Part shown: one piece after another, positions 2,875 to 60,202 of the stretch | Numbering within the stretch: the first letter of the stretch is position 1 | Layout of the letters: every line of letters starts with the position of its first letter | Assembly (NCBI GenBank): GCA_963930775.1 | Contig: OZ005697.1 | Span: forward strand, 4,362,292-4,426,291 | Reading direction: 5' to 3' | DNA from: Cliona cf. orientalis | Lineage: Eukaryota; Porifera; Demospongiae; Clionaida; Clionaidae | Length of the DNA: 64,000 bases | Notes under the pieces: generated by a model | What the model was told of the DNA's origin: nothing | The model's input: the letters and a program-made list of their open reading frames with translations, nothing else | The model's database searches: none | Translations under genes and position numbers: made by a program

Positions 2875-5800
2875 TTAATCCCATTCATAGTCCCAGACTG
2901 GACCACACATATGGATCTCATCATACTCTGTCCATATGGCCTTCTTAGCATGCAGCTGCAGTGACTCCATTAGTGCAACTGCTTCATTAATCTTCTCCGG
3001 ATAGCCGTCAACTGCTTCCTGCAACACTCGTAAGAAGTTGCGATAAACTTGATGGAAAGCTCTGGCCTCCGCAGTACAATTTACATTCATTTTAACCCCC
3101 GTTTTCGTAGGGTTATCTCTCATTGGCCACACTCCTTTTGGATCGTAGGGAATTGGAAGCCCAGTGTATGAATAGCCATATTTTGATTTCTCCAACCTCC
3201 TCTGGCAGACAATCTCTTCAAACTTATAAAAATGAGCAAGCTCACCTGGGATTCCTGTTTCAGGGTTGAGAGAGATGGTACCTTCACCCTGGTCAACAAT
3301 TTGCTGAATGGCCTTCATTGCTGATGCCAAGTCAGTAACAATGAATAGTTCACCAACAGTCTCTTCCATTTTCCACGGCCATCTCAGTTGTCTTTTTACA
3401 TGGCCTTGAAAGATCTCATCACCCAAATGTGATAGACACAAGCTTATCTCCTTGTAGACTTGTCCAATTGTATGCAGAGTGTATCGAACATTAAATTTTG
3501 GATCTGTTCCCGATATCAATATAGCTGGAGTCTCAATACCCATAAAAGTATAATAGACATGTTCTTCTTTAGAGTTAGGAATAAGTGAGGTAGTACTCCT
3601 CCAGGAAGACCCTTTCTTGGAAATTTAGGAGCCTTTTCAGGAGTATGTAGTACTACTTTACCCCCAATTGAGATCAGGATATTCGCTGCCTGAGCATAAT
3701 GAAGCATTTCTTGCATAACAATACTTCTGATCAGCTCATAAGCTTCAACATTGCAGTCCTGTACAATGGAATAGAGAGCTGTCAGGTAGAGAGGCAAGGT
3801 TATAAACTCAAGTTCAGTAGCTATTTGGAGTTGGTCTTTCAAGTTATCCAGAGTACAAATGGGATATACAAAATGCTGTCTGATAACACTCAGGTCATCT
3901 TCCACATTCATACCCACAAAGCCTAAGAGTGGCCTTATAGTATCAGTTGACTTTGCAAGCTTTGAGTATTCATCATGAATGATCTGATGAAAGTATGCCT
4001 CATCATTCCCTGGGTTATCACTGTATGCAATCAATCTTTTCTTACATCGAGGAGGACTAAAATAAGAAACACTTGGCATAGCAATATCTGTTGAAGGACT
4101 AAGACAACTAGGGGTTGCTGGTTTTTCTGCTAACTCACAGTCACGGTCATAACAAGGCTTTTCAAGCCATTCCAATATCATCGCCAGTTTTGTAGATGAT
4201 AAATCTCTAGTGACAGGCATGTAATTCGGATCTGTAAAATCCTTGGTGAACGATGCTCGTAATAGCTCAACATTATGAGGATTGGTCACTTCTGTGTAGC
4301 TTTTCATGTTCAGAATGGTGGACATTATGTTGTGAAGATGATGAAACTGATGAAATATCGGTTCAACATGATCAATCCACGTGTATGGCCGTTCGTAGCT
4401 CACGGTGGAGAATGCTAAGAATGCTATGATGGTCGGGCAAAGAAGGATAAACTCCTCACTTGGATTTTCAGAAATATTATATAGCATGCTAGAGTATTTA
4501 TCAGCTCAGTAATAAAAAATATACACTTGCCCATCTATAGGAACTTCATAAATTTCCAAACTATTAGGATCCTGATGGTAGTTACTGATATTTTTTCTAA
4601 GTTTGATCATGTCACGGATGCAAGGGTCTCCTTTGTATTGCCGTTCCTCTGGAATTGGGCTTGCAACTTTGAATGTAAATGTAACTAGTCCATAACTTTC
4701 AGTTTTTGCTGTATCTTGTGCTACAATTACTCCTTTATCAGGTATAACTTTATTGGTATTGTATATGTGTATCAAAACACCTGGAGTTGGAATTCCAAAC
4801 TTTGACACCAATAATGTTACATTACTGGTAGAGGTTTCACCTTTGTACTCCAGCCGACTCTGGTAGTGATCCATCGGTCGTATATAGTACAATAACTCCT
4901 TAAACAGCAGGATTGTCTTGTGATCATCATGTTTCAATGATGGGAGTGTTTCCATAACTTGATGGACAGAATTATGGATATCATTAACGACTTGTTTGAC
5001 TATTACTAACTGTGATCTTTCCAGTAGTGACATACCATTGCTATCAAGATGCCATTCGATTACTCCACCATACTTCCTTATCAGTTCCCAATTTCTATAT
5101 GGCACTTCATTGCCAAATATGATCACGGAGGCATCCTCTTGGAGTATTCCGAAAAAGAGTTCTCCCAAATCTAGAGGTTTGTTGTCGATATCCACTGGAA
5201 AAGCATTGCTAATATCCACCACTAGTTTGTTACAAGATTTGTCAATTATAAATGGTGCCATGAGTGTCCACGGTTTTAATTCAGTCTTGGTGACATTATA
5301 ACATCGATGCTCTGGTAGAAACTTGAGGTCTGGATGAGTAGTTTCAAGCTTCCTGTCACCTCCATCATTAAGTGGTTCTCCAGACTTTGCCAGTCCAATA
5401 GTGCCAATCACTTCTCCAATGGTGAATGCTTCTTGGCTAAAGTAGTTGTAGGACACTGCTATGGAGAGATCGCCTGTACAATCTGTACACTGAGCAAATT
5501 CTTGAAGAGCAGGAGGAATATTTGCCCAGGTAATATTGGTAATTCTGCTAGTGCTACTGCCACCTAGATAAGCATCATGAGCCATGTGCTCTCCATGTAA
5601 AGCACACATCATTTTGAACCACAGGTTGCGAGCAACAAATGATGGAGACCAGTCCCCAAGGAAAAATATTTCATCATCCTTTCTGAGCCCTAACTTCAGA
5701 CCATACAGTGTAGAGATTTGATAATCAACATCCAAATCCACAAGTTTGGCCAGCGGTTGAACCTGATTACTGAATAATTCTGCACCCAACAATGAACTTG

Positions 5801-6289
5801 TAACAATTTCATTTCCACCAGAATCAATCACAGCAGTTATGTAGGTATCAAGGAATTCCCATTCAGATGAGCCCTTGTAGTTCCAGTCACCTTCACTATA
5901 AGCAGGCCGATCATAGTCAAAATTGCACCTATAGTTGTTGCGTGAATTAACATCAGCTCGAAACTTGCCAGAAAAATGGATTCGGGGCATGTCTAGATAT
6001 GAACTATTTACTGCAATAAACCTGGGTTATAAGATACAAAGATATTGTTATAATAATGATTCCAAATATCTTGTACCCTGGTATGTACCACAAGTGCACC
6101 CTAGCTACCACATTATAATGTCAAATTTGTGAAGGTACAATATCCTTACAATGGAAAGGCAGTGCCAAGACTACCCGGGAATTTATAGGTATACTTACAC
6201 AACTCATGATCATCACTGTCTGAAAACATCTTTAATTACCTCAATTGAATGATGCCAAAGAAAATTGCAATCAGAGTGCTCAACTTCAT
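2875..6289 (-). pseudogene. VioB/RebD/StaD-like gene, copy 1, disrupted
   Basis: This is a degraded paralogue of the intact gene at 11599-16478. Exon 1 (6289-6240) encodes a signal peptide starting MKLSTLIAIFFGIIQL. It ends AG|GTAATT, and exon 2 starts at 6021 after a cccag acceptor, giving a 218-base intron. The frame runs to 4506, where a TGA replaces the TGT (Cys) of the intact copy. The same frame then continues (4505-3570) up to a net 10-base deletion near 3564-3570, just after the ferritin-like helix region. The last part (3543-2875) is in a shifted frame and ends at the same position as the intact copy. The N-terminal two thirds are nearly identical to copy 2; patches around 3240-3480 and 3840-4080 are clearly more divergent. 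The two lesions make a full-length product impossible unless they are assembly errors. A secreted 500-residue N-terminal fragment could still be made. Confidence 0.85.
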
Positions 6290-11598: not shown

Positions 11599-14500
11599 TT
11601 AATCCCATTCATAGTCCCAGACTGGACCACATGTATGGATCTCATCATACTCTGTCCATATGGCCTTCTTAGCATGCAGCTGCAGTGACTCCATTAGTGC
11701 AACTGCTTCATTAATCTTCTCTGGATAGCCGTCAACCGCTTCCTGCAACACTCGTAAGAAGTTGCGATAAACTTGATGGAAAGCTCTGGCCTCCGTAGTA
11801 CAATTTACATTCACTTTAACCCCCGTTTTTGTAGGGTTATCTCTCATTGGCCACACTCCTTTTGGATCGTAGGGAATTGGAGACCCAGTGTATGAATAAC
11901 CATGTTTTGATTTCTCCAACCTCCTCTGGCAGACAATCTCTTCAAACTTATAAAAATGTGCAAACTGACCTGGGATCTCTGTTTCAGGGTGTAGAGGACC
12001 AGCACCTTCTCCTTGGTCAATAATTTGCTTAATGGCCTTCTTTGCAGATGTAGTGTCAGTAACTATGTATAGTTTACCAACAGTCTTTTCTATTTTCCAT
12101 GGCCACTTAAGTTGCCTTTCTATGTTGACTTGAAATATATTGTCACCCAGATGTGACAAACATGCACTTATTTCCTCGTAAAATTGTCCAATTGTGTGTA
12201 GGATGTATCCACCACGAATCCTTGAATCTGTTCCAAAATATATAGCTGGAGTTTCAATACTCATGAAAGTATAGTAGACATGTTCAAGAGTAAATTTTTT
12301 AAGAGTTAGGAACAAGTGAGGTAGTACTCCTCCAGGAAGACCCTTTCTTGGAAATTTAGGAGCCGTTTCAGGAGTATCCAGTACTACTTTACCCCCAATT
12401 GATATCAGGATATTCGCTGCCTGAGCATAATGAAGCATTTCTTGCATAACAATACTTCTGATCAGCTCATAGGCCTCCACATTGCAGTCCTGTACAATGG
12501 AATAGAGAGCTGTCAGATAGAGAGGCAAGGTAGTGAATTCAAGTTCAGTAGCTATTTGGAGTTGGTCTTTCACTTTATCCAGAGTGCAATGTGGGTATAT
12601 AGAATGTTCCTGAAGGTATTTACTAATAACATTCACAGACATTTGGTTGTGTTTCATTAAAAAGCCAAACAGTGGCCGTACAATATTAAATTTTGATTCT
12701 GCAAGCTTTAACAAATCATCATGAATAATCTGATGAAAATATGCCTCGTCATTTTCTGGATTATCACTGTATGCAATCAATTTTTTCGTACAACGCGGCG
12801 GACTAAAATAAGAAACGCTTGGCACAGCGATGCCCATTGAGGGACTGAGACAACTAGGGGTTGCTGATTTTTCTGCTAAATTACAGTCACTGTCATAACA
12901 AGGTTTTTTAAGCCATTCCAATATCATCGCCCGTTTTGTAGATGATAAATCTCTAGTGACAGGCATGTAATTCGGATCTGTAAAATCCTTGGTGAATGAT
13001 GCTTGTAATAGCTCAACATTATGATGATGGGTCACTTCTGTGTAGCTTTTCATGTTCAGAATGGTGGACATTATGTGGTGAAGATGATGAAACTGATGGA
13101 ATATTGGTTCAACATGATCAATCCACGTGTATGGCCGTTCATAGCTCATGGTGGAGAACGCTAAGAATGCTATGATGGTCGGGCAAAGAAGGATAACATC
13201 ATTATTTTTTCCATTTAATATGTTAGGAATGCTACATGGTCTGCTAGTGTCCCTGTCAGCACAGTAATAAAATGCATATACTTGCCCGTCTATAGGAAGT
13301 TGATGAATTTCCAAGTCATTACGATCCTGTCTGTAGTGACCAGTAATTTTCCCTTTCATACTAATTGTACCATGACAAGGGTCACCTTTGTATTGCCGTT
13401 TCTCTGGAATTGGACTAGCAGCCTCAAAAATAAATGTAACGAGTCCAAGGCTATTAGTTTTTGCTGTATCTTGTGCTGCTATTACTCCCTTATCAGGTAT
13501 AGCTTTGTTGACATTGAATATGCGTATCATAACATCTGGAGTTGGAATTCCAAACTTTGACACCAATAAAGTCACAGTACTGCTGGAATGTTCACCTTCG
13601 TACTCGAGCCGACTCTGGTAGTGATCCATCGGTCGTATATAGTACAATAACTCCTTAAACAGCAGCATTACCTTGTGATCGTCATGTTTCAATGATGGGA
13701 GTATTTCTACAATCTGATGAACAGAATTATGGACATCCTTAACGACTTGTTTGACTATTACTAACTGTGATCTTTCCAGTAGTGACATACCATTGCCATC
13801 AAGATGCCGTTCGATTACTCCACCATACTTCCTTATCAGTTCCCAATCTCTATATGGCACTTTATTGCCAAATATGATCACGGAGTCATCCTCTTGGAGT
13901 ATTCCGAAAAAGAGTTCTCCCAAATCTAGAGGCTTGTTGTCGATATCCACTGGAAAAGCATTGCTAATATCCACCACTAGTTTGCTGCGAGATTTGTCAA
14001 TTACAAATGGTGCCATGAGTGTCCACGGTGTTAATTCGGTCTTGGTGATATTATAACATCGATGCTCTGGTGGAAACTTGAGGTCTGGATGAGTAGTTTC
14101 AAGCTTCCTGTCACCTCCGTCATTAAGTGGTTCTCCAGACTTTGCCAGTCCAATAGTGCCAATCACTTCTCCAATGGTGAATGCTTCTTGGTTAAAGTAG
14201 TTGTAGGACACTGCTATGGAGAGATCGCCTGTACAATCTGTACACTGAGCAAATTCTTGAAGAGCAGGAGGAATATTTGCCCAGGTAATATTGGTAATTC
14301 TGCTAGTGCTACTGCCACCTAGATTAGCATCATGAGCCATATGCTCTCCATGTAAAGCACACATCATTTTGAACCACAGGTTGCGAGCAACAAATGATGG
14401 AGACCAGTCCCCAAGGAAAAACACTTCACCGTCCTTTCTGAGCCCTAACTTCAGACCATACAGTGTAGAGATTTGATAATCAACATCCAAATCCACAAGC

Positions 14501-16478
14501 TTGGCCAACGGTTGATCCTGATTACTGAATAATTCTGCACCCAACAACGAACTTGTAACTATTTCATTTCCACCAGAATCAATCACAGCAGTTATGTAGG
14601 TATCAAGGAATTCCCATTCAGATGAGCCCTTGTAGTTCCACTCACCTTTAGGATCAATAGGCCGACCATAATCAAAATTGCACTTAAGGTTGTTGCGTGA
14701 ATTTGTATCAGCTCGAAACTTGCCAGAAAAATGGATTCTGGGCACATCCAGATATGAACTGCCTACTATAACAAACCTGGGTAAAGGGAAACAAAGTATT
14801 TTTTGATTGAGTAGTTAGCTAATTCACATGGCAAAAGTTATGCTGTACTCATCTTTCACCTTGGTGGATCTAGGGGGAACCCTTCTAGTTCCAATAGCTA
14901 AAAGGTAATGCTGAATCAGATGTGCTTAGCCATGCAAATTGATGGTTTTACGTAAATACACAACATTTAGTTGTAGTAGTGGTCAGCTCTAAACTGGTAG
15001 TAAACTGGTTAAAACTACTCTCCAGATAGCTGTAATGAAACCTGCTTGAGGTTTGCACTTACTAAACCTTGGCATATGCGCCAGAGGGTTATGGTAGTCA
15101 TTATGTGTGTATCTGTTACCAAGCTAGCTGCTACATACCTCGTTTGCGAATCCAAAGTATGGTGTTATAAGGTTCTTTATGGCATTCCAAAAGTGCTTTA
15201 TTTGCCAGTTTTGTCGTCATTTGCTGATTTGACTTTTGTCTGGCTAGTGGTAGCATGACTTGACATAATATAAAATTAATAGAACATCATGTGTCTCACG
15301 CTACGTATTACTAACCCTCGACGCATACATGTTAGACACGGTTGCAATAAATCGTTGACGATGGTGGCACTGCTGCCGCCTTCCTTGCTTAGCTCAATAT
15401 TTAGCTACCATGCCATGTGCCTTCTTGTGGTACCCTTTTACTCTAACTTTGTGCGGCTTATATGCATGCATGGCCATGCAGTGCTTGCACCCAAGTAAGC
15501 AACTTACAGTATTGGACATGCAATGCTGCTCAGTGTACATGTACATCAGTTTTGCACCAAGGTTTTATATCAAGGTTCTTTAAGATGTTTTAAAGAAGCT
15601 GTGAGGAAAGTTGACTTGATCAGATGCTGCCACTGCAGTGTGGAGTCAGTATGATACAACACACCCTGCAACCTTGAACAACACTGCTGTACAAGTAAAC
15701 TATAACATTAGCCTCACCCCCAATCCTTTACCCACTTTTCTGCATGCAATACTGAAATATGTAGCTACAATGCCATGAAACATGCCGAGAATGTTGTACA
15801 CGAGAGAGCCCTAGAGTACTACTGTAAGTGTTACGCTAGGCTTTTAGCAGGAATTGAGTAGGTTTAAGTCAGGAGTAGATTAGATATATAGGAGTATTGA
15901 ACTACATGCAAATGCATTCCGGGAGAATGACGTAGATAATACGCGAGTAATGAATCTGCGGTCATGTAGATGAGTAGAACGGGTGTGTCCCACTCAGGCC
16001 ACCATAGTACCAGCTGCACTATACAGTTGTACAGCTACCGGAACACTGTTACTACATTTGTACTGTAGTTCAACACTCCTATCAAACCTACTCCTGTTTA
16101 AGTAAGTCCCCAAATTTTCATGTTTACAAAAGTGCTACAATCCTGCTATTCTAATAATCCTAGATCCACCGCTGATACAATATGCATGTATCAAAGAGGT
16201 CTCTCATTAAAACAGTGCAATATAAATTTAAATAGTATACTACCATAGTATCCCGGGTAAATGCCCATGGGCGCTTAAACATAACTCGCAATTTTGGCCC
16301 GCACAGGCTTATAGAAGCTGCTACAGTGGCCCCTTGAGATGTGGTACATGGGGCTTGTCCGGGACACTACAGTAGTATGAAGTCATTACAGTCTAATGGT
16401 TGACAATATAATTGATATCTTCAAATACCTCAGTTGAATGAAGCCCAAGAAAATTGCAATCAGAATGCTCCACTTCAT
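11599..16478 (-). CDS. VioB/RebD/StaD-like protein, secreted form, copy 2 (intact)
   Basis: Two exons, complement(11599..14776, 16429..16478), give 1075 residues, close to the usual VioB size of about 1000. Exon 1 encodes a signal peptide starting MKWSILIAIFLGFIQL; its donor is AG|GTATTT and the acceptor is ccctttacccag. The join is in frame. The codon at 14745 is GTG in this copy and ATG in the paralogue, so it is not the start: conserved residues (SSYLD) precede it. The mature N-terminus carries the family's PRIHFSGKF motif (about 29-37). A YMPVTRDLS segment (about 620), a ferritin-like helix pair with ATELEF (about 760) and QEMLHYAQAANIL (about 795), and DQGEG (about 935) all match VioB order. 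Known relatives couple two imines of indole- or phenylpyruvate during violacein, rebeccamycin and staurosporine synthesis. The substrate here is unknown, and secretion into the ER pathway is unusual for the family. Confidence 0.85.
14777..16428 (-). other. Intron of the intact VioB-like gene (1652 bases)
   Basis: The paralogous intron in copy 1 is only 218 bases, so about 1.4 kb was gained here or lost there. It contains a repeat-like segment at 16245-16390 (TATCCCGGGTAA and TCCGGGACACTACAGTAG ends) related to 51210-51360. The short open frames inside show no recognisable protein. Confidence 0.7.
16245..16390. repeat. Short MITE-like repeat, copy at 51210-51360
   Basis: Shares GGGCGCTTA, GAAG-TGCTACA-TG-CCCCTTGA and ATG-GGTACATGGGG-CTT blocks with 51210-51360, with inverted CCCGGG/CCGGGA-type ends. 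Confidence 0.5.
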
Positions 16479-52402: not shown

Positions 52403-54662
52403 TTAAACTACTTTTCCAAACTCAACTGAATCACAGACTTTGTCGTCAGTGGTCCACCCTCCCACCACCATTAATTGGTTGTCAGGGAGAACAGCTAATA
52501 AACAGTAGTATCTAGGTGTTGCCATGTGACTAATGACCTCCCAGGAGTTAGTGGTTGGCTGGTACATATAAACATCTGAGGTGGGTTTGTCTTCTGAATC
52601 CACCCCACCAATTGCCAGCAGTCGACCATGAAGACTCACAGCAGAGGAGCATTTTACAGGGATGTCAGCGATTCTATTCCATGGGTTATCTTTGCTGAAC
52701 ATGAGTGTTACAGTAGCTACATGTACAAAACGCTTTCTTAGCAATGTGGAACCAGTGGAGAAAAAAAGTGATGTTAATGAACAACTGTATACCGAATTTG
52801 TACGTGCTTTGTGTTTGTCGCCTCCCCCCAACAGGTAGACTAGATCACCACAGAGTGCTATTGATGAACTTGACAATGGTTGAGGTAGATCAGCAGCAAT
52901 GTGCCACTCACAAGTCTCAATGTTCAACACTTCAACTGCTTTCAATGCTTTATCCTTACGACCATGGCCATCTCCTCCCACTACGATTAGAGCTGTTCCA
53001 GTGCACAGTGCAGACACGCAGTACCGTTTAGTAGGCATTGGTGGGAATTTCTCAGTCCACCTCCTACCACTGCCTTCACCAATCAGACTGTACAGCTTGT
53101 TGGTGTTCACACTACCTATCAATCCACCAATTGTAGTCAGTAGACCATCAACGATTGCCAGAGCAAATCCTTTAGTTGGGCTGCTTGTAACAGGAGACCA
53201 AGTGGAGCTTAGTATATGATACGAGAATACTTCACCACTGCTTTCATACATGCAATACACAGTGTTGTTACCCACAACTGCATCACAATATTGAATCATT
53301 TGACATGGAGATTTTTCTCCCTCTCGCCACCTCAGCTTGAAGTCAGTTCTGCTCACTGCTCCAGCTTTAGCTTCACTATCTTTCCCCTGTACCTGACTTC
53401 TCAGAATTCTAAGCTCTTCTTCAAGTTCTGTGTTTTGTTTGTCAAAATTAGTTATCAGTCTCTCACTCTCTTCCAGCTGCTGATTCACTCGTCCAAGCTC
53501 CCTCTCTCTTTCCACTTTTTCTTGAATTGCTTGATCCCTTGCTTGTTCTACTTGTTGCTTATCTCTCTCTAGTTGCTGGATCTCCTCATTCTGCAGTTGA
53601 ATTTGTTGCCTCTGGTGCTGAATTTGTTGATTCTTTTGCTGAATCTGCTGAGTCAGCTCATCTTTAAGTTGTCTTAGTTGCTGTTCTTTCTCTGCTATAA
53701 TTGCATCTTTTTGATCTATGACATTTTTGTATTCAGCTGTTTCTTTTAGAGCTGCTATTCTTTCACAGAGCTTCTGAGATGAGGGTCGCTCACCACCAGC
53801 ATCTTTGAGACAGTCGAGAGCAATCGGTAGAAGAGGATGGTTTGGATCAACTTGACTAATGTGATTTTGTCGTCGTTCTATTTCTGATACACACAGTTTG
53901 AGTGCACCTTGAGGATAGCGAGGGTCATCAATCGTCATCTGTCGATCTCCAGGTTTGGGGAACTCTCGTGTCAGTATCTGGACTGTGATGACACCAAACG
54001 AGAAGCAGTCTATCTTCTCTGTGTACAGTGGCTGGTCGTGAACAGCTTCTGGAGGCATGTAGACATCAGTACCGGGACACATGGTGTTAGTGAAACGAAT
54101 TGCTTGAGAATTTACATTGCCCAACCTTGCCATTCCAAAGTCTGTCAATTTTGCTATAATGTTACCAATGAGCAACACATTGTTGCTATATAGAAAGATC
54201 TCTATGGACAATGCCATTGGAGTGAAGAAACGAAAGTGCTCGAGATATATCATGACAGATGTTGACTTGGGTGTGATAGAGGATTGGCTGTGGGGAGCTT
54301 TCCAGAAAGTGAGTTAGGCTGTCATCCATCAGCTCCATCAGCAGAACTGGAAGACGTGTTTCGAGATCTTGGTGGGTGCCCAGGTATTGGACAATGTTAG
54401 GGTGCCGCACGGTGCTCAAAAAATCACATTCCAGTTGAAATCTCCTGATTGGTAGCCTGTGCTCTCTGTGAGGGGCTATTTGTTGCAGTGCAGTTGGGTC
54501 AAATAGGGTTGGGTGGATAACTTTTGCAGCACAAAGGAGGTCATCACACTTTGCCTTGCAGACTGAGCCATATGATCCAATACCAAGGATTTGATCTTTG
54601 AAAAGAATAATAGTTTTGAAGCCAATCTTCTTGTCTCCCTGCTGTTGCTGTTCTCCAGCCAT
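52403..54662 (-). CDS. TKL-like protein kinase with coiled coil and Kelch repeats (frameshifted)
   Basis: Starts at MAGEQQQQG (54662). The glycine loop GIGSYGSV is at about residues 27-34, the AAK lysine near 46, RHPNIVQYLG near 95 and HRDLS near 153. The expected SNNVLL follows only after four extra bases, ATAT, at 54188-54191, which create a TAG and shift the frame. Removing them gives a 751-residue frame ending at 52403. Downstream come DFG (TDFGMARL), a PPEAV activation-loop end, a long Gln/Glu coiled coil (about residues 325-455) and about five Kelch-type blades with GG pairs (IGGL, VVGGD, LLGGGD, AIGGVD, VVGGW). Kinase-coiled coil-Kelch proteins are numerous in sponges; substrates are unknown. 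As written the catalytic domain is broken, so this is either a recent pseudogene, an indel allele or an assembly error. The gene is intronless otherwise. Confidence 0.75.
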
Positions 54663-55930
54663 AACTTAACTATCTTGAGCTACAATACTCGGGTACTTTC
54701 TTGCAATTACAGGTTTATCCAATAGATGTGCCCTTAAGCGGTCCATGTAGCATGTTCTTGTGTGGTCACCATAGCAATTATCACAAGCTAGTGAATATTT
54801 ATGTTGAAATTCATTCATTGACCTCTTCAGAATAGACTAGTAAGTGCATATCAAAGTAGCACAAGCTACTCTGCAGGCCTCCTGGCCTCCAACCGAGATA
54901 TGCTATAAAGCAACATTTTTATGAGCGTGAAAAAATTATGCATAATTATCGGTAAAAACAGACATCTTGAAAAATTTACGCGGTTTTTATTTATGCCTAC
55001 ACAGACTAGCTATACGTTTCATGTATGGCGTGTTGTAAATTATTTATCGATCGCCACTTGACTCACATAATACTCACGCAATTGCAATGTCATAAAAATA
55101 TCACTTTAGAGTAAATCAAAAACTTGGCATAGCGGCTACTCAACCATATCATAGCTACAACACTAAAGCTACTACAGGCCATATGCTTGCTGCTGCTGAG
55201 AAGTATGGCCAACAAATTGCAGCGTATGCGATGCTCATGGCCGAATCGAGGCATAATGAAGCCAAATTTTTTGGATTTGTTTTGTCGCTCACATGTCTAT
55301 AGCTATAGATCTCTCTGACACCAAATCTTGTGACTTGTGCTGACAAATAATACGGATTGTTTTGCCCATGCATTGCACATGTGTGCATGTGTGGGGTACC
55401 CTACCTAAAAGAATGCATTCAATGGGTATAATAATATTATGTATACAGGAAATAGTGATACCCCTCAATTTCTGGTATCTTCCGACCCAAGACGCTTAGG
55501 CCATGGAAATTGTTGATAAGCTAAATTATAACTGACTCATAGTAATAATTATAACTGTGTCCTTGATAACCCATAATAATAATTATAATTATTTTTATGA
55601 TCAGTTCAATATTACGTATAGTCATGAATGCCTAGATCTCCAATGTATACTGAGCATGAGCAGCAGCTTGCTTTACAACTCATTCAGTGACTATAAGTAC
55701 AGCAGTTATTATACTAGTGTTGGAATACAGTATATAAGCTTACGTAACTGCACCATATCCTGCATCATCTCATTTGTCATGTACATGTACATCTATAGCA
55801 AAGGTACATGGGAATACACAAGGTAATTCAGAATTATTGTGTTGATGCAATAATAATATTATTATGGATGGTGCTGGCTACTGAAATTGTATAGCATATT
55901 TATTCTTGTGCTTATCACATAACATTCTGG
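54663..55930. other. Spacer, no gene seen
   Basis: AT-rich, with short unconvincing frames only. The promoter of the kinase gene should lie immediately above 54662. Confidence 0.4.
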
Positions 55931-56715: not shown

Positions 56716-58162
56716 CCGTGTGTACATTAAGAAAATCTGTTCAGCTGCATGTTAGGTGTAGCTTTTGTGGTGTATTTATTATTGTGTATGTTTATGATGT
56801 CATTATTATGTCATTCATTTTTAGACCTTTAGACCTAGTGCACATGTGCATTGTTCAGTTGCTCCTCATGTTCTTTCTGTTAATGTCTCTCTTTCTCTAT
56901 CAATAATGATCTGCTTGAATCTACGAGCAACTAAGTAAAATACAACAGCTTTGATGCGTTCTGTGCGAATAAGTGTAGGTAGGTGTTAACCATGCTGGTG
57001 TTGCATGCGTGACTAGACCTCACTCATTTGTGACCCCTTGGTGAACTTTATAATTTGCTCTGTGTGCACCCTCCTGGGCCGCTAGTAGTTTCTAATAGGT
57101 ATTGTAGCTATTTTGTATTAGGCCTTACTTTTGTGTGTATCTTATAAATAGAGATTTGTACATTATGTTGAGTTGTGTGTTATAGCATTTTGATATTCTT
57201 GTCTGTTATCGGATTAAAGAGTTACAGTTGCATGTATGTACCTCGGCGAGGTGTTCCCTGAGAACCTGCTACAATTATTATAGTATACATGGGATATGCA
57301 ATTCTACAAAGTGCTGGTATAGCCACATGTACTTGCAATCTTGGTGATCATAATAATAATAATAATAATAATAAATATTATTACGTGAATGCTGAGGGAT
57401 ATTATAATAATAATGTCATAATTAACAATAATATTATAGCTACAAATCAAAAGTAACATGCTATTAATTAGCAAGTGCTTCTTGTACCATAATAATATAC
57501 AGACATATAATATAGATCTATCATGTATAGTCTATCTATGTTTAATTTGTACAAAATTAGTGAACAAAGTCCTGATAATACTATAAAAGAAAGGTAACTA
57601 CTATAGGTGAACAATATTCGTACCATAAACCATAATATGGACATAGCTATTATAGTAGTTTCACAATTATATGGGACATACAGTATATCGAAAGTAATGA
57701 TGAAATACATGTGCAATAATAATATTGTTATTGTAAGTTTGGGGGTGGCTGATATTAAATTTGTTTATACTCCAACCCTAAAACAGAAATCAGATTATCT
57801 TATCTATATAAACACACACATTGAAATTTTGAAGTATTAATAATATTATAACATACATTGTACAATAAATTTGGATAATTTGTGTCACGGTAACATGCAG
57901 GTGCATGTTATGTGAGGTAATATATTATACAGTTTCATATGTGAATATTGCTATATTAATGACATAATTATTCATCTCATGCACCTGCATGATATGCATT
58001 ATGTGAGGTATCATTATGGAATTTAGTTTATTAGTTAGCCACGACACAAAATAGCTGACAGTTCAGGTGACTTAATTATAATACTGTAGAGGACTAACAA
58101 AATTAGCTAGCAAGACCTATACATTTATCTATTAGCCACATCAGAACCATAACAACAATTTT
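56716..58162. other. Spacer upstream of the transporter gene, AT-rich
   Basis: Contains an (AAT)n microsatellite (about 57352-57375) and many AATAATATTATT palindromes. A GGTGCATGTTATGTGAGGTA motif (57900) recurs loosely near 57980-58010 (GCACCTGCATGATATGCATT and ATGTGAGGTA). No gene was seen; it probably includes the promoter of the transporter. Confidence 0.4.
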
Positions 58163-60202
58163 ATGGCTCACCAAGTGGAAGAGAGTGATTTGCTAATTCA
58201 TCCAGTAAGGTCTAGACTTAGAGGAGCTGCATCCCGTCCCTCTCAATCACATGCTTCTGAATCGGACAAAAATGTAATACAGCTTCTATTGAGGAAGCTC
58301 CCATCCATCCTGCCGTGTGACATCTGTATCAAATCCAAAGCAGTTATGCTCATCCTGGTATGGAGCATGATAATCGGAGCTATCTACCTCCTCCTGCTGA
58401 ATGGCTTTGGTGTGATGGGTTTCAGTTTACGTCGTCACATTGAGTATATCGACAAGGATCGATTACCTATCAATGTACTAATAATCACTGTTATACTGGC
58501 CTATGCTTTCCTTGCTATAATCCTATTGGTGTATCCCCTAAGTGGCTATTTCGCTGATGTCTGGTGCGGACGCTACAAAGCTGTCATAATCAGTCTTATA
58601 TTGCTTTGTGTAGCCCTTTTTCTCTTATGTTGTGCTGCAGTAATTGGGATAAGAAGCTCATGGAGAAAGGATAGTTTTGGACTAGGTCAATTAATTCCAT
58701 TTGTGGTACTGTTGACTGTGATGATGATTATGATCATTATAAGTCTTTCTTGCTACCAGGCTAATATCATTCAACTTGGTCTAGACCAGCTGTTAGAGGC
58801 TCCCAGTGAGAAACTTAGCCAGTTCATCCACTGGCTCATGTGGGCATATACACTGGGAAGCTTCATACCACTAATCACGTACGTATTTTTGCCATGTTCC
58901 TATAATTCCACGAATTCTAAATCAGGTGCAGAATGGATTAGGATTACAAGTTTTATTCCATTTCCTGCTCTTCTTCTTTTATCTCTCCTGCTGGCCTTCA
59001 CATGTTACGACAAAACTTGGTTCTACTCTGAGCCAGGACAGAATGATCCGTACAAAACTGTGTACAGGGTTCTCCGTTTTGCCTGGAAGAATAAGTTCCC
59101 TATTCGTCGCAGTGCATTTACGTACTGTGATGACTTCATGCCATCACGGATTGACTTTGCCAAGGAGAGGTATGGAGGACCATTCACTACATCACAGGTT
59201 GAAGATGTAAAAACATTCTTAAGAATAGTGAAGGTATTGGTAGCTTTGGGACCGATTTTTATTGTTGAAGTTCCAGGCTCTTATTATCTCTTTCCTCTCT
59301 TTGCTTTACATATTGATAGCACTTTGCAGTTCCAAACAGATCAGCAATGTCACTCAGTAATCAAATGGGTTCTCGTGCAAAGTGGAAGCCTCGGATACAT
59401 TTCTTCTGTCATATTCTTTCCTATGTACATTTGGCTAATTTTTTCGCTTCTTCGTAGGAGAATACCCAAAATCTTAAATCGTTTGAAGTATGCTGTGTGT
59501 ATGCCAGTGGCTGGTGTTCTTTGCTTGCTTATCACAGACCTAATTGGACACTATCGTTTTCATCAAAATTATCCAAACAACTCCACAGGTGGTGTATGTT
59601 TATTCACATCCAGATTTGTAAACCCTGAAGAAGAACACATACCTAATTTACTCGATATGCACTGGGGTGTTGTCATTCCTCCTTGTATTCTGTTTAGTCT
59701 TGGATATCTATTGGTACAGTCAACAGCAGTCGAGTTCATCTTAGCACAGAGTCCTCACTCAATGAAAGGACTTCTTGTTGGAGTCTTCTTTTCCATCAAA
59801 GGCCTCTTTCAGTTTATCAGTGCAGCTGCAGTAATCCCATTTGCAATTCCGAGCATTTGGAATGACATCAACTCAGTGACTAACTGTGGATTTGGCTACT
59901 ATCTTTTCACCGCTGTAGTAGGTTTGGTTGGTCTAGTGGTATTATCCTTCGTAGTGAGAAGTTATAAGTATCGTCAACGAGATGAAAGACCCTTTGACAC
60001 ACGCTTTGCTGAGCAGTACTATGAGAAAGACATTCATTCATCATATAGTCCAGTTACTGGGGTGGGTAGCAACAGTGATAGATGCTCGCATACATATTAT
60101 GGCACTACTAGGAATAGTGATTATGGAGTAATTGAAGGTCACGATGAGATGAATATCTGCCTTAAGGACAGTGCCAGTCAAAGTTATGAGAGGCTGAACT
60201 AA
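58163..60202 (+). CDS. POT/SLC15-like proton-coupled transporter, intronless
   Basis: 679 residues starting MAHQVEESDLLIHP at 58163, with stop TAA at 60200. A soluble N-terminus of about 70 residues is followed by about 12 hydrophobic segments. YPLSGYFADVWCGRYK (about 123-138) matches the POT/PTR signature PLxGGxxAD...GRYK, and GLDQLLEAPSEKLSQFIHW (about 211-230) matches the next conserved stretch of that family, where an acidic and amide pair sits before an aromatic helix. Known relatives move di- and tripeptides, histidine or nitrate with protons. The ExxER proton motif of classical peptide carriers is not seen, so the substrate is open. The C-terminal tail is polar with Tyr- and Ser-rich motifs, probably cytoplasmic. 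A poly(A) signal AATAAA lies at 60349-60354. The lack of introns suggests either a retroposed origin or a naturally single-exon family. Confidence 0.75.
   Translation: MAHQVEESDLLIHPVRSRLRGAASRPSQSHASESDKNVIQLLLRKLPSILPCDICIKSKAVMLILVWSMIIGAIYLLLLNGFGVMGFSLRRHIEYIDKDRLPINVLIITVILAYAFLAIILLVYPLSGYFADVWCGRYKAVIISLILLCVALFLLCCAAVIGIRSSWRKDSFGLGQLIPFVVLLTVMMIMIIISLSCYQANIIQLGLDQLLEAPSEKLSQFIHWLMWAYTLGSFIPLITYVFLPCSYNSTNSKSGAEWIRITSFIPFPALLLLSLLLAFTCYDKTWFYSEPGQNDPYKTVYRVLRFAWKNKFPIRRSAFTYCDDFMPSRIDFAKERYGGPFTTSQVEDVKTFLRIVKVLVALGPIFIVEVPGSYYLFPLFALHIDSTLQFQTDQQCHSVIKWVLVQSGSLGYISSVIFFPMYIWLIFSLLRRRIPKILNRLKYAVCMPVAGVLCLLITDLIGHYRFHQNYPNNSTGGVCLFTSRFVNPEEEHIPNLLDMHWGVVIPPCILFSLGYLLVQSTAVEFILAQSPHSMKGLLVGVFFSIKGLFQFISAAAVIPFAIPSIWNDINSVTNCGFGYYLFTAVVGLVGLVVLSFVVRSYKYRQRDERPFDTRFAEQYYEKDIHSSYSPVTGVGSNSDRCSHTYYGTTRNSDYGVIEGHDEMNICLKDSASQSYERLN

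Follow-up and report, generated by a model that had tools for sequence, protein, structure and literature searches.

A VioB-like gene with a leader exon

A gene on the minus strand of the 64-kb window analysed here (the whole stretch of 64,000 nucleotides from contig OZ005697.1 of Cliona cf. orientalis; the assembly comprises 216.8 Mb in 149 contigs) joins a short leader exon to a long exon encoding a bacterial-type, VioB-like protein with a ferritin-like C-terminal domain. The gene belongs to the animal genome, where it is part of an expanded family. Taking the statement as a whole, we consider it somewhat probable (about 0.6) that the product is secreted and works as a di-iron oxidase on a small aromatic substrate, which may derive from an amino acid; this reading is firm as regards gene structure and family and weakest as regards the substrate. 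The features of the gene and of a second copy in the window are as follows.

16429..16478, minus strand: exon 1, leader; 50 nt encoding MKWSILIAIFLGFIQL(R), ATG at 16478, donor GT at 16428-16427
14777..16428, minus strand: phase-2 intron; 1,652 bp, GT...AG, AG at 14778-14777, 3' end pyrimidine-rich
11599..14776, minus strand: exon 2, VioB-like protein; beta-rich N-terminal half and ferritin-like C-terminal part, stop at 11601-11599
11614..12597, minus strand: ferritin-like domain; exon-2 residues 727-1054, ligand candidates E746, E779, H782, E841, E923 and H940
6240..6289, minus strand: exon 1 of the second copy; leader MKLSTLIAIFFGIIQL(R), 45/50 nt identical to exon 1 of the first copy
2875..6021, minus strand: exon 2 of the second copy; protein 82-84% identical to the first copy, broken

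Exon 2 holds an intact frame of 1,058 amino acids (14775 to 11602, with the stop ending at 11599). Exon 1 ends with two bases of an Arg codon and the frame is kept across the junction (...LGFIQLR-FVIVGSSYLDVPRIHFSGKF), giving the joined N-terminus MKWSILIAIFLGFIQLR-FVIVGSSYLDVPRIHFSGKF. The initial annotation had described a separate 50-base leader exon joined by a canonical in-frame intron, and the coordinates, the GT and the AG are all as it claimed; a hydrophobic leader is predicted, assigned from hydropathy and from the small residue preceding SYL.

The annotation had also seen the same arrangement in a second copy. While the exon layout is indeed repeated there, the copy is damaged: a TGA interrupts the frame at 4508-4506, and the frame changes near 3564. 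Its intron is 218 bp long as compared to 1,652 bp in the first copy, and the two introns do not align beyond a 71-nt block around exon 1. Since 45 of the 50 nucleotides of exon 1 are kept between copies whose introns do not align, comparison gives good support for exon 1 as a genuine exon. The ratio of non-synonymous to synonymous substitution (dN/dS) between the two copies is 0.32-0.52 (three pieces). Synonymous divergence (NG86; 11599-14775 versus 2875-6026) is uneven: it is 0.16 for the N-terminal part and rises to about 0.3 elsewhere, which may reflect gene conversion.

A family in the animal genome with a shared leader intron

Searches of the assembly with the protein and with PF12902, which give a lower bound, located at least 15 family places on 10 contigs (C1, C4, C5, C7, C8, C9, C10, C11, C16 and C19), nine of which range from 7.2 to 37.5 Mb. 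The 15 places are 11 near-full-length copies (924-1066 amino acids as read), three fragments and the second copy, which is broken. Among the near-full-length copies, C1b has overlapping frames, which may be damage. Wnt is an animal family; matches to it (PF00110) lie at three places in the assembly and at none in 14 control prokaryotes. In an IQ-TREE analysis, the kind of tree by which the initial annotation had proposed that a contaminant might be recognised, the 11 near-full-length animal copies form one clade (100/99). The introns, the Wnt matches, the single animal clade and a splice acceptor common to all 12 readable loci bear out the earlier view that an animal genome holds a bacterial-type gene carrying a leader exon and an intron.

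That acceptor emerged from a comparison of the 5' ends of 12 loci, namely the two window copies and 10 paralogues (the 5' part is missing from the three fragments). At each of the 12, a phase-2 AG acceptor is located just upstream of the SYL..PR motif, which reads FYL, SYM and SYF in three loci; the distance is exactly six codons and one base in 10/12, and eight and ten codons in the other two. Because it is shared by all 12 loci, the leader intron is, on this comparison, older than the family expansion. A hydrophobic exon 1 was accepted at 4/12 loci. Conservation of exon 1 in the second copy, together with the acceptor at 12/12 readable loci, places the junction beyond chance.

Signal peptidase requires a small residue before its cleavage site, and the residue preceding the motif, though variable, is Ala, Gly, Ser or Cys at all 12 loci. 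Among 13 aligned fused bacterial relatives, with start codons picked in this analysis, 12 begin with MSYL and one with MTYL. Given such a start, cleavage before SYL in the animal proteins would restore the Ser-Tyr-Leu N-terminus that is left in bacteria after Met removal. The animal proteins have, furthermore, gained cysteines and glycosylation sequons: the means are 17.5 and 11.6, respectively (n = 11, mean length 1023), as compared to 5.8 and 3.7 in the bacterial rows (n = 76, mean length 931). Nine cysteine columns are common to at least 7/11 animal rows and present in 0-1 of the 76 bacterial rows. Taken together, leader, cysteines and sequons indicate that the animal family proteins probably leave the cytosol via the leader and enter the secretory pathway.

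Literature searches, among the records listed and in the main text of two papers on horizontal gene transfer, with subscription papers largely outside their scope, found no report of animal family members. PF12902 is named among Schistosoma vesicle proteins in part of PMC7563238, a mention that may refer to ordinary ferritins.

Distant relationship to VioB

The window protein matches PF12902 over residues 739-948 with 158.3 bits (E 3.5e-46), well above the Pfam gathering cut-off of 22.3 bits. Against the VioB equivalog model TIGR04492 it scores 13.9 bits, the cut-off being 1250. When the animal proteins were compared by hhalign with fused bacterial VioB-like proteins, the alignment spanned 857 columns at 32% identity (E 1e-178); profile comparison with true VioB gave 808 columns at 21% identity (E 5e-21). 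The whole-length alignment to bacterial VioB-type enzymes noted earlier is thus real over its full length, but the match is to a VioB-like family, with true VioB reached by profile only.

Species genomes of bacteria and archaea were scanned for relatives; we kept the best 80 of 194, which come from several phyla. The family is laid out either as one gene of ~900 amino acids or as two adjacent genes of ~640 and ~350; at each of three loci (L080, L110 and L113) two VioB-like gene pairs lie in tandem. Seven of the 13 fused relatives match TIGR04492 at E 0.01 or better (best E 1.5e-11; one of the seven scores 25.5 bits), and 3/4 bacterial genomes examined carry a true VioB (1722-1856 bits) alongside VioB-like genes.

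The tree comprised 47 rows (11 animal, all from this genome, 34 bacterial VioB-like and two VioB) and 869 columns. A 100/100 branch separates the two VioB rows from all 45 others, and the 19 split bacterial rows form one clade (98/99). Support for the branch joining the 34 bacterial VioB-like rows is low (60/87), so that the animal clade may be either sister to these rows or nested in them. We considered the window protein as a true VioB and rejected this assignment, since it fails TIGR04492 and the tree groups it with a non-VioB bacterial family. Together with the co-occurrence of both families in three bacterial genomes, this speaks against the label 'VioB/RebD-type imine-dimer synthase' given in the initial annotation. 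By profile and phylogeny, the animal proteins are not VioB; they are distant cousins of that enzyme, which joins tryptophan halves in the synthesis of the purple pigment violacein.

In a fold model, the C-terminal domain adopts a ferritin-like four-helix fold. The six ligand candidates are kept in 10/11 animal and 76/76 bacterial rows of the sequence alignment and are also present in both VioB rows, which suggests that the animal enzymes probably bind iron. A paralogue on contig C8 (L027, 4001-6220) has an open main exon and has lost four of the six candidates; it is possibly a pseudoenzyme.

Bacterial gene neighbourhoods

Clustering of flanking open reading frames revealed recurrent neighbour families common to the same 14 of the 80 bacterial loci (L042, L053, L055, L070, L071, L079, L081, L085, L094, L098, L100, L102, L110 and L113), which span six genera: Photobacterium, Undibacterium, Flavobacterium, Chromobacterium, Pseudoduganella and Massilia. 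In a direct check with the six genes downstream of the Flavobacterium locus L070, itself counted among the 14, each locus had at least five of the six by homology: 14/14 have the first and fifth genes as well as the TatD-like and the DHQ-synthase-like gene, 13/14 have the sixth, and 5/14 have UbiA at the threshold used. L072 has the fifth gene alone, and the other 65 loci have none of the six in the flanks examined (of all 80 loci, 14 span less than 11 kb). Pfam names were assigned to the neighbours in L070, L053 and L071. We take TatD, UbiA, DHQ synthase and phosphodiesterase to be the make-up of the ebo operon, with the letters EboA-F assigned tentatively from gene order. One EboE query against the animal genome brought up no ebo-type gene.

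According to passages of PMC6282210, the ebo cluster was shown to take part in transporting a scytonemin precursor into the periplasm, and protection against nematode grazing is ascribed to a Pseudomonas cluster that includes ebo. Term searches of the main text of two ebo papers found neither ferritin nor violacein/VioB. A few actinobacterial loci adjoin tryptophan-halogenase-type genes (L083 and L066), a P450 gene (L074) or glutamate-mutase-type genes (L095 and L109). By analogy, these contexts weakly favour small-molecule oxidation over iron storage, and the ebo-type linkage of some relatives, a hint at most, is the nearest pointer to indole or pigment chemistry.

Proposed function and alternatives

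We propose that the animal acquired one bacterial-type VioB-like gene, to which an upstream signal-peptide exon became joined via a phase-2 intron placed just ahead of the old bacterial start, and that subsequent expansion produced at least 11 copies near full length. Once cleaved before SYL, the product would acquire disulfide bonds and glycosylation in the secretory pathway and act as a ferritin-like di-iron oxidase through the six ligand candidates, with the beta-rich N-terminal half helping to form the substrate site. Outside the cytosol the enzyme would oxidise or oxidatively couple its substrate; the substrate class and the coupling are our guess. A bolder version, which we put forward tentatively and hold to be rather improbable, is that the one captured gene gave rise to an expanded secreted oxidative-coupling family making host-encoded alkaloids or pigments outside the cytosol: some bacteria would pair a cytosolic enzyme with an ebo-type export operon, while the animal exports the enzyme itself.

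A functional imine-dimer synthase that, like VioB, StaD and RebD, couples two aromatic imines together with an amino-acid oxidase and leads to a pigment or defensive alkaloid would account for the full-length profile homology to VioB and for the ligand candidates common to both VioB rows, and amino-oxidase genes (PF01593) are present in the genome. We nevertheless find it unlikely, given the failed VioB model, the separate clade, and the Ser/Thr of both VioB rows at the position of E946, which is kept in 11/11 animal rows. Among the amino-oxidase places listed, moreover, none comes within 100 kb of the family places listed, although animal pathways need not cluster.

Quite unlikely, in our judgement, is a secreted iron-binding, ferroxidase or structural protein that stores or oxidises iron extracellularly with no organic substrate. 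The ferritin-like fold, the high copy number and the open paralogue without the ligand set fit such a role, but a long beta-rich half is co-conserved in bacteria and some bacterial relatives are found in metabolite-type contexts. Finally, the bacterial-type sequence and the broken second copy could point to a bacterial contaminant or dead gene; this is extremely improbable in view of the introns, the Wnt matches in the same assembly, the spread over 10 contigs, nine of them of multi-megabase length, a dN/dS between copies below 1 and the intact frame of the first copy.

Other window features and significance

Elsewhere in the window, exon-like pieces at 27317-49755 (plus strand) match hydantoinase/oxoprolinase (PF05378) and an S-Me-THD-like domain (PF20906) on the same strand, and are possibly a single intron-rich bacterial-type gene. 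At 52403-54665 (minus strand) a protein kinase precedes Kelch repeats, and the overlap of the two frames that encode them suggests an intron; a 688-amino-acid open frame at 58136-60202 (plus strand) encodes a POT/PTR2-family transporter.

Whether host or bacteria make the alkaloids and pigments of sponge-like animals is a long-standing question, for which an expanded, apparently secreted, host-encoded VioB-like family offers concrete genes. The family also exemplifies how a bacterial cytosolic enzyme may be refitted for the secretory pathway with a leader exon, cysteines and glycosylation sites. Looking for its relatives also connected ebo-type export operons with a family of bacterial enzymes that is uncharacterised.

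Comparison with known systems

The chromopyrrolic acid synthases RebD and StaD, which were compared with the animal protein by description, are described as performing VioB-type coupling (in parts of PMC10851217 and PMC10847564). Besides the coupling of aromatic imines, a heme cofactor is a defining trait of imine-dimer synthases of the VioB, RebD and StaD type. Caulobacter CC_0557 (PDB 3hl1) is likewise ferritin-like, but it is a stand-alone protein of 317 amino acids that lacks the N-terminal half. VioB, the iminophenyl-pyruvate dimer synthase, shares full-length profile similarity, an N-terminal S-x-L-D-x-P-R and the ExxH and QGEG motifs; it differs in the Ser/Thr at the E946 position and in its equivalog model, on which the animal protein reaches 13.9 of the 1250 bits set as cut-off. 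The uncharacterised bacterial VioB-like family (e.g. L047, L053 and L070) has no leader or introns, has fewer cysteines and sequons and is frequently split in two genes, while it shares with the animal proteins the whole-length alignment, PF12902 in the C-terminal part, the SYL..PR motif and all six ligand candidates.
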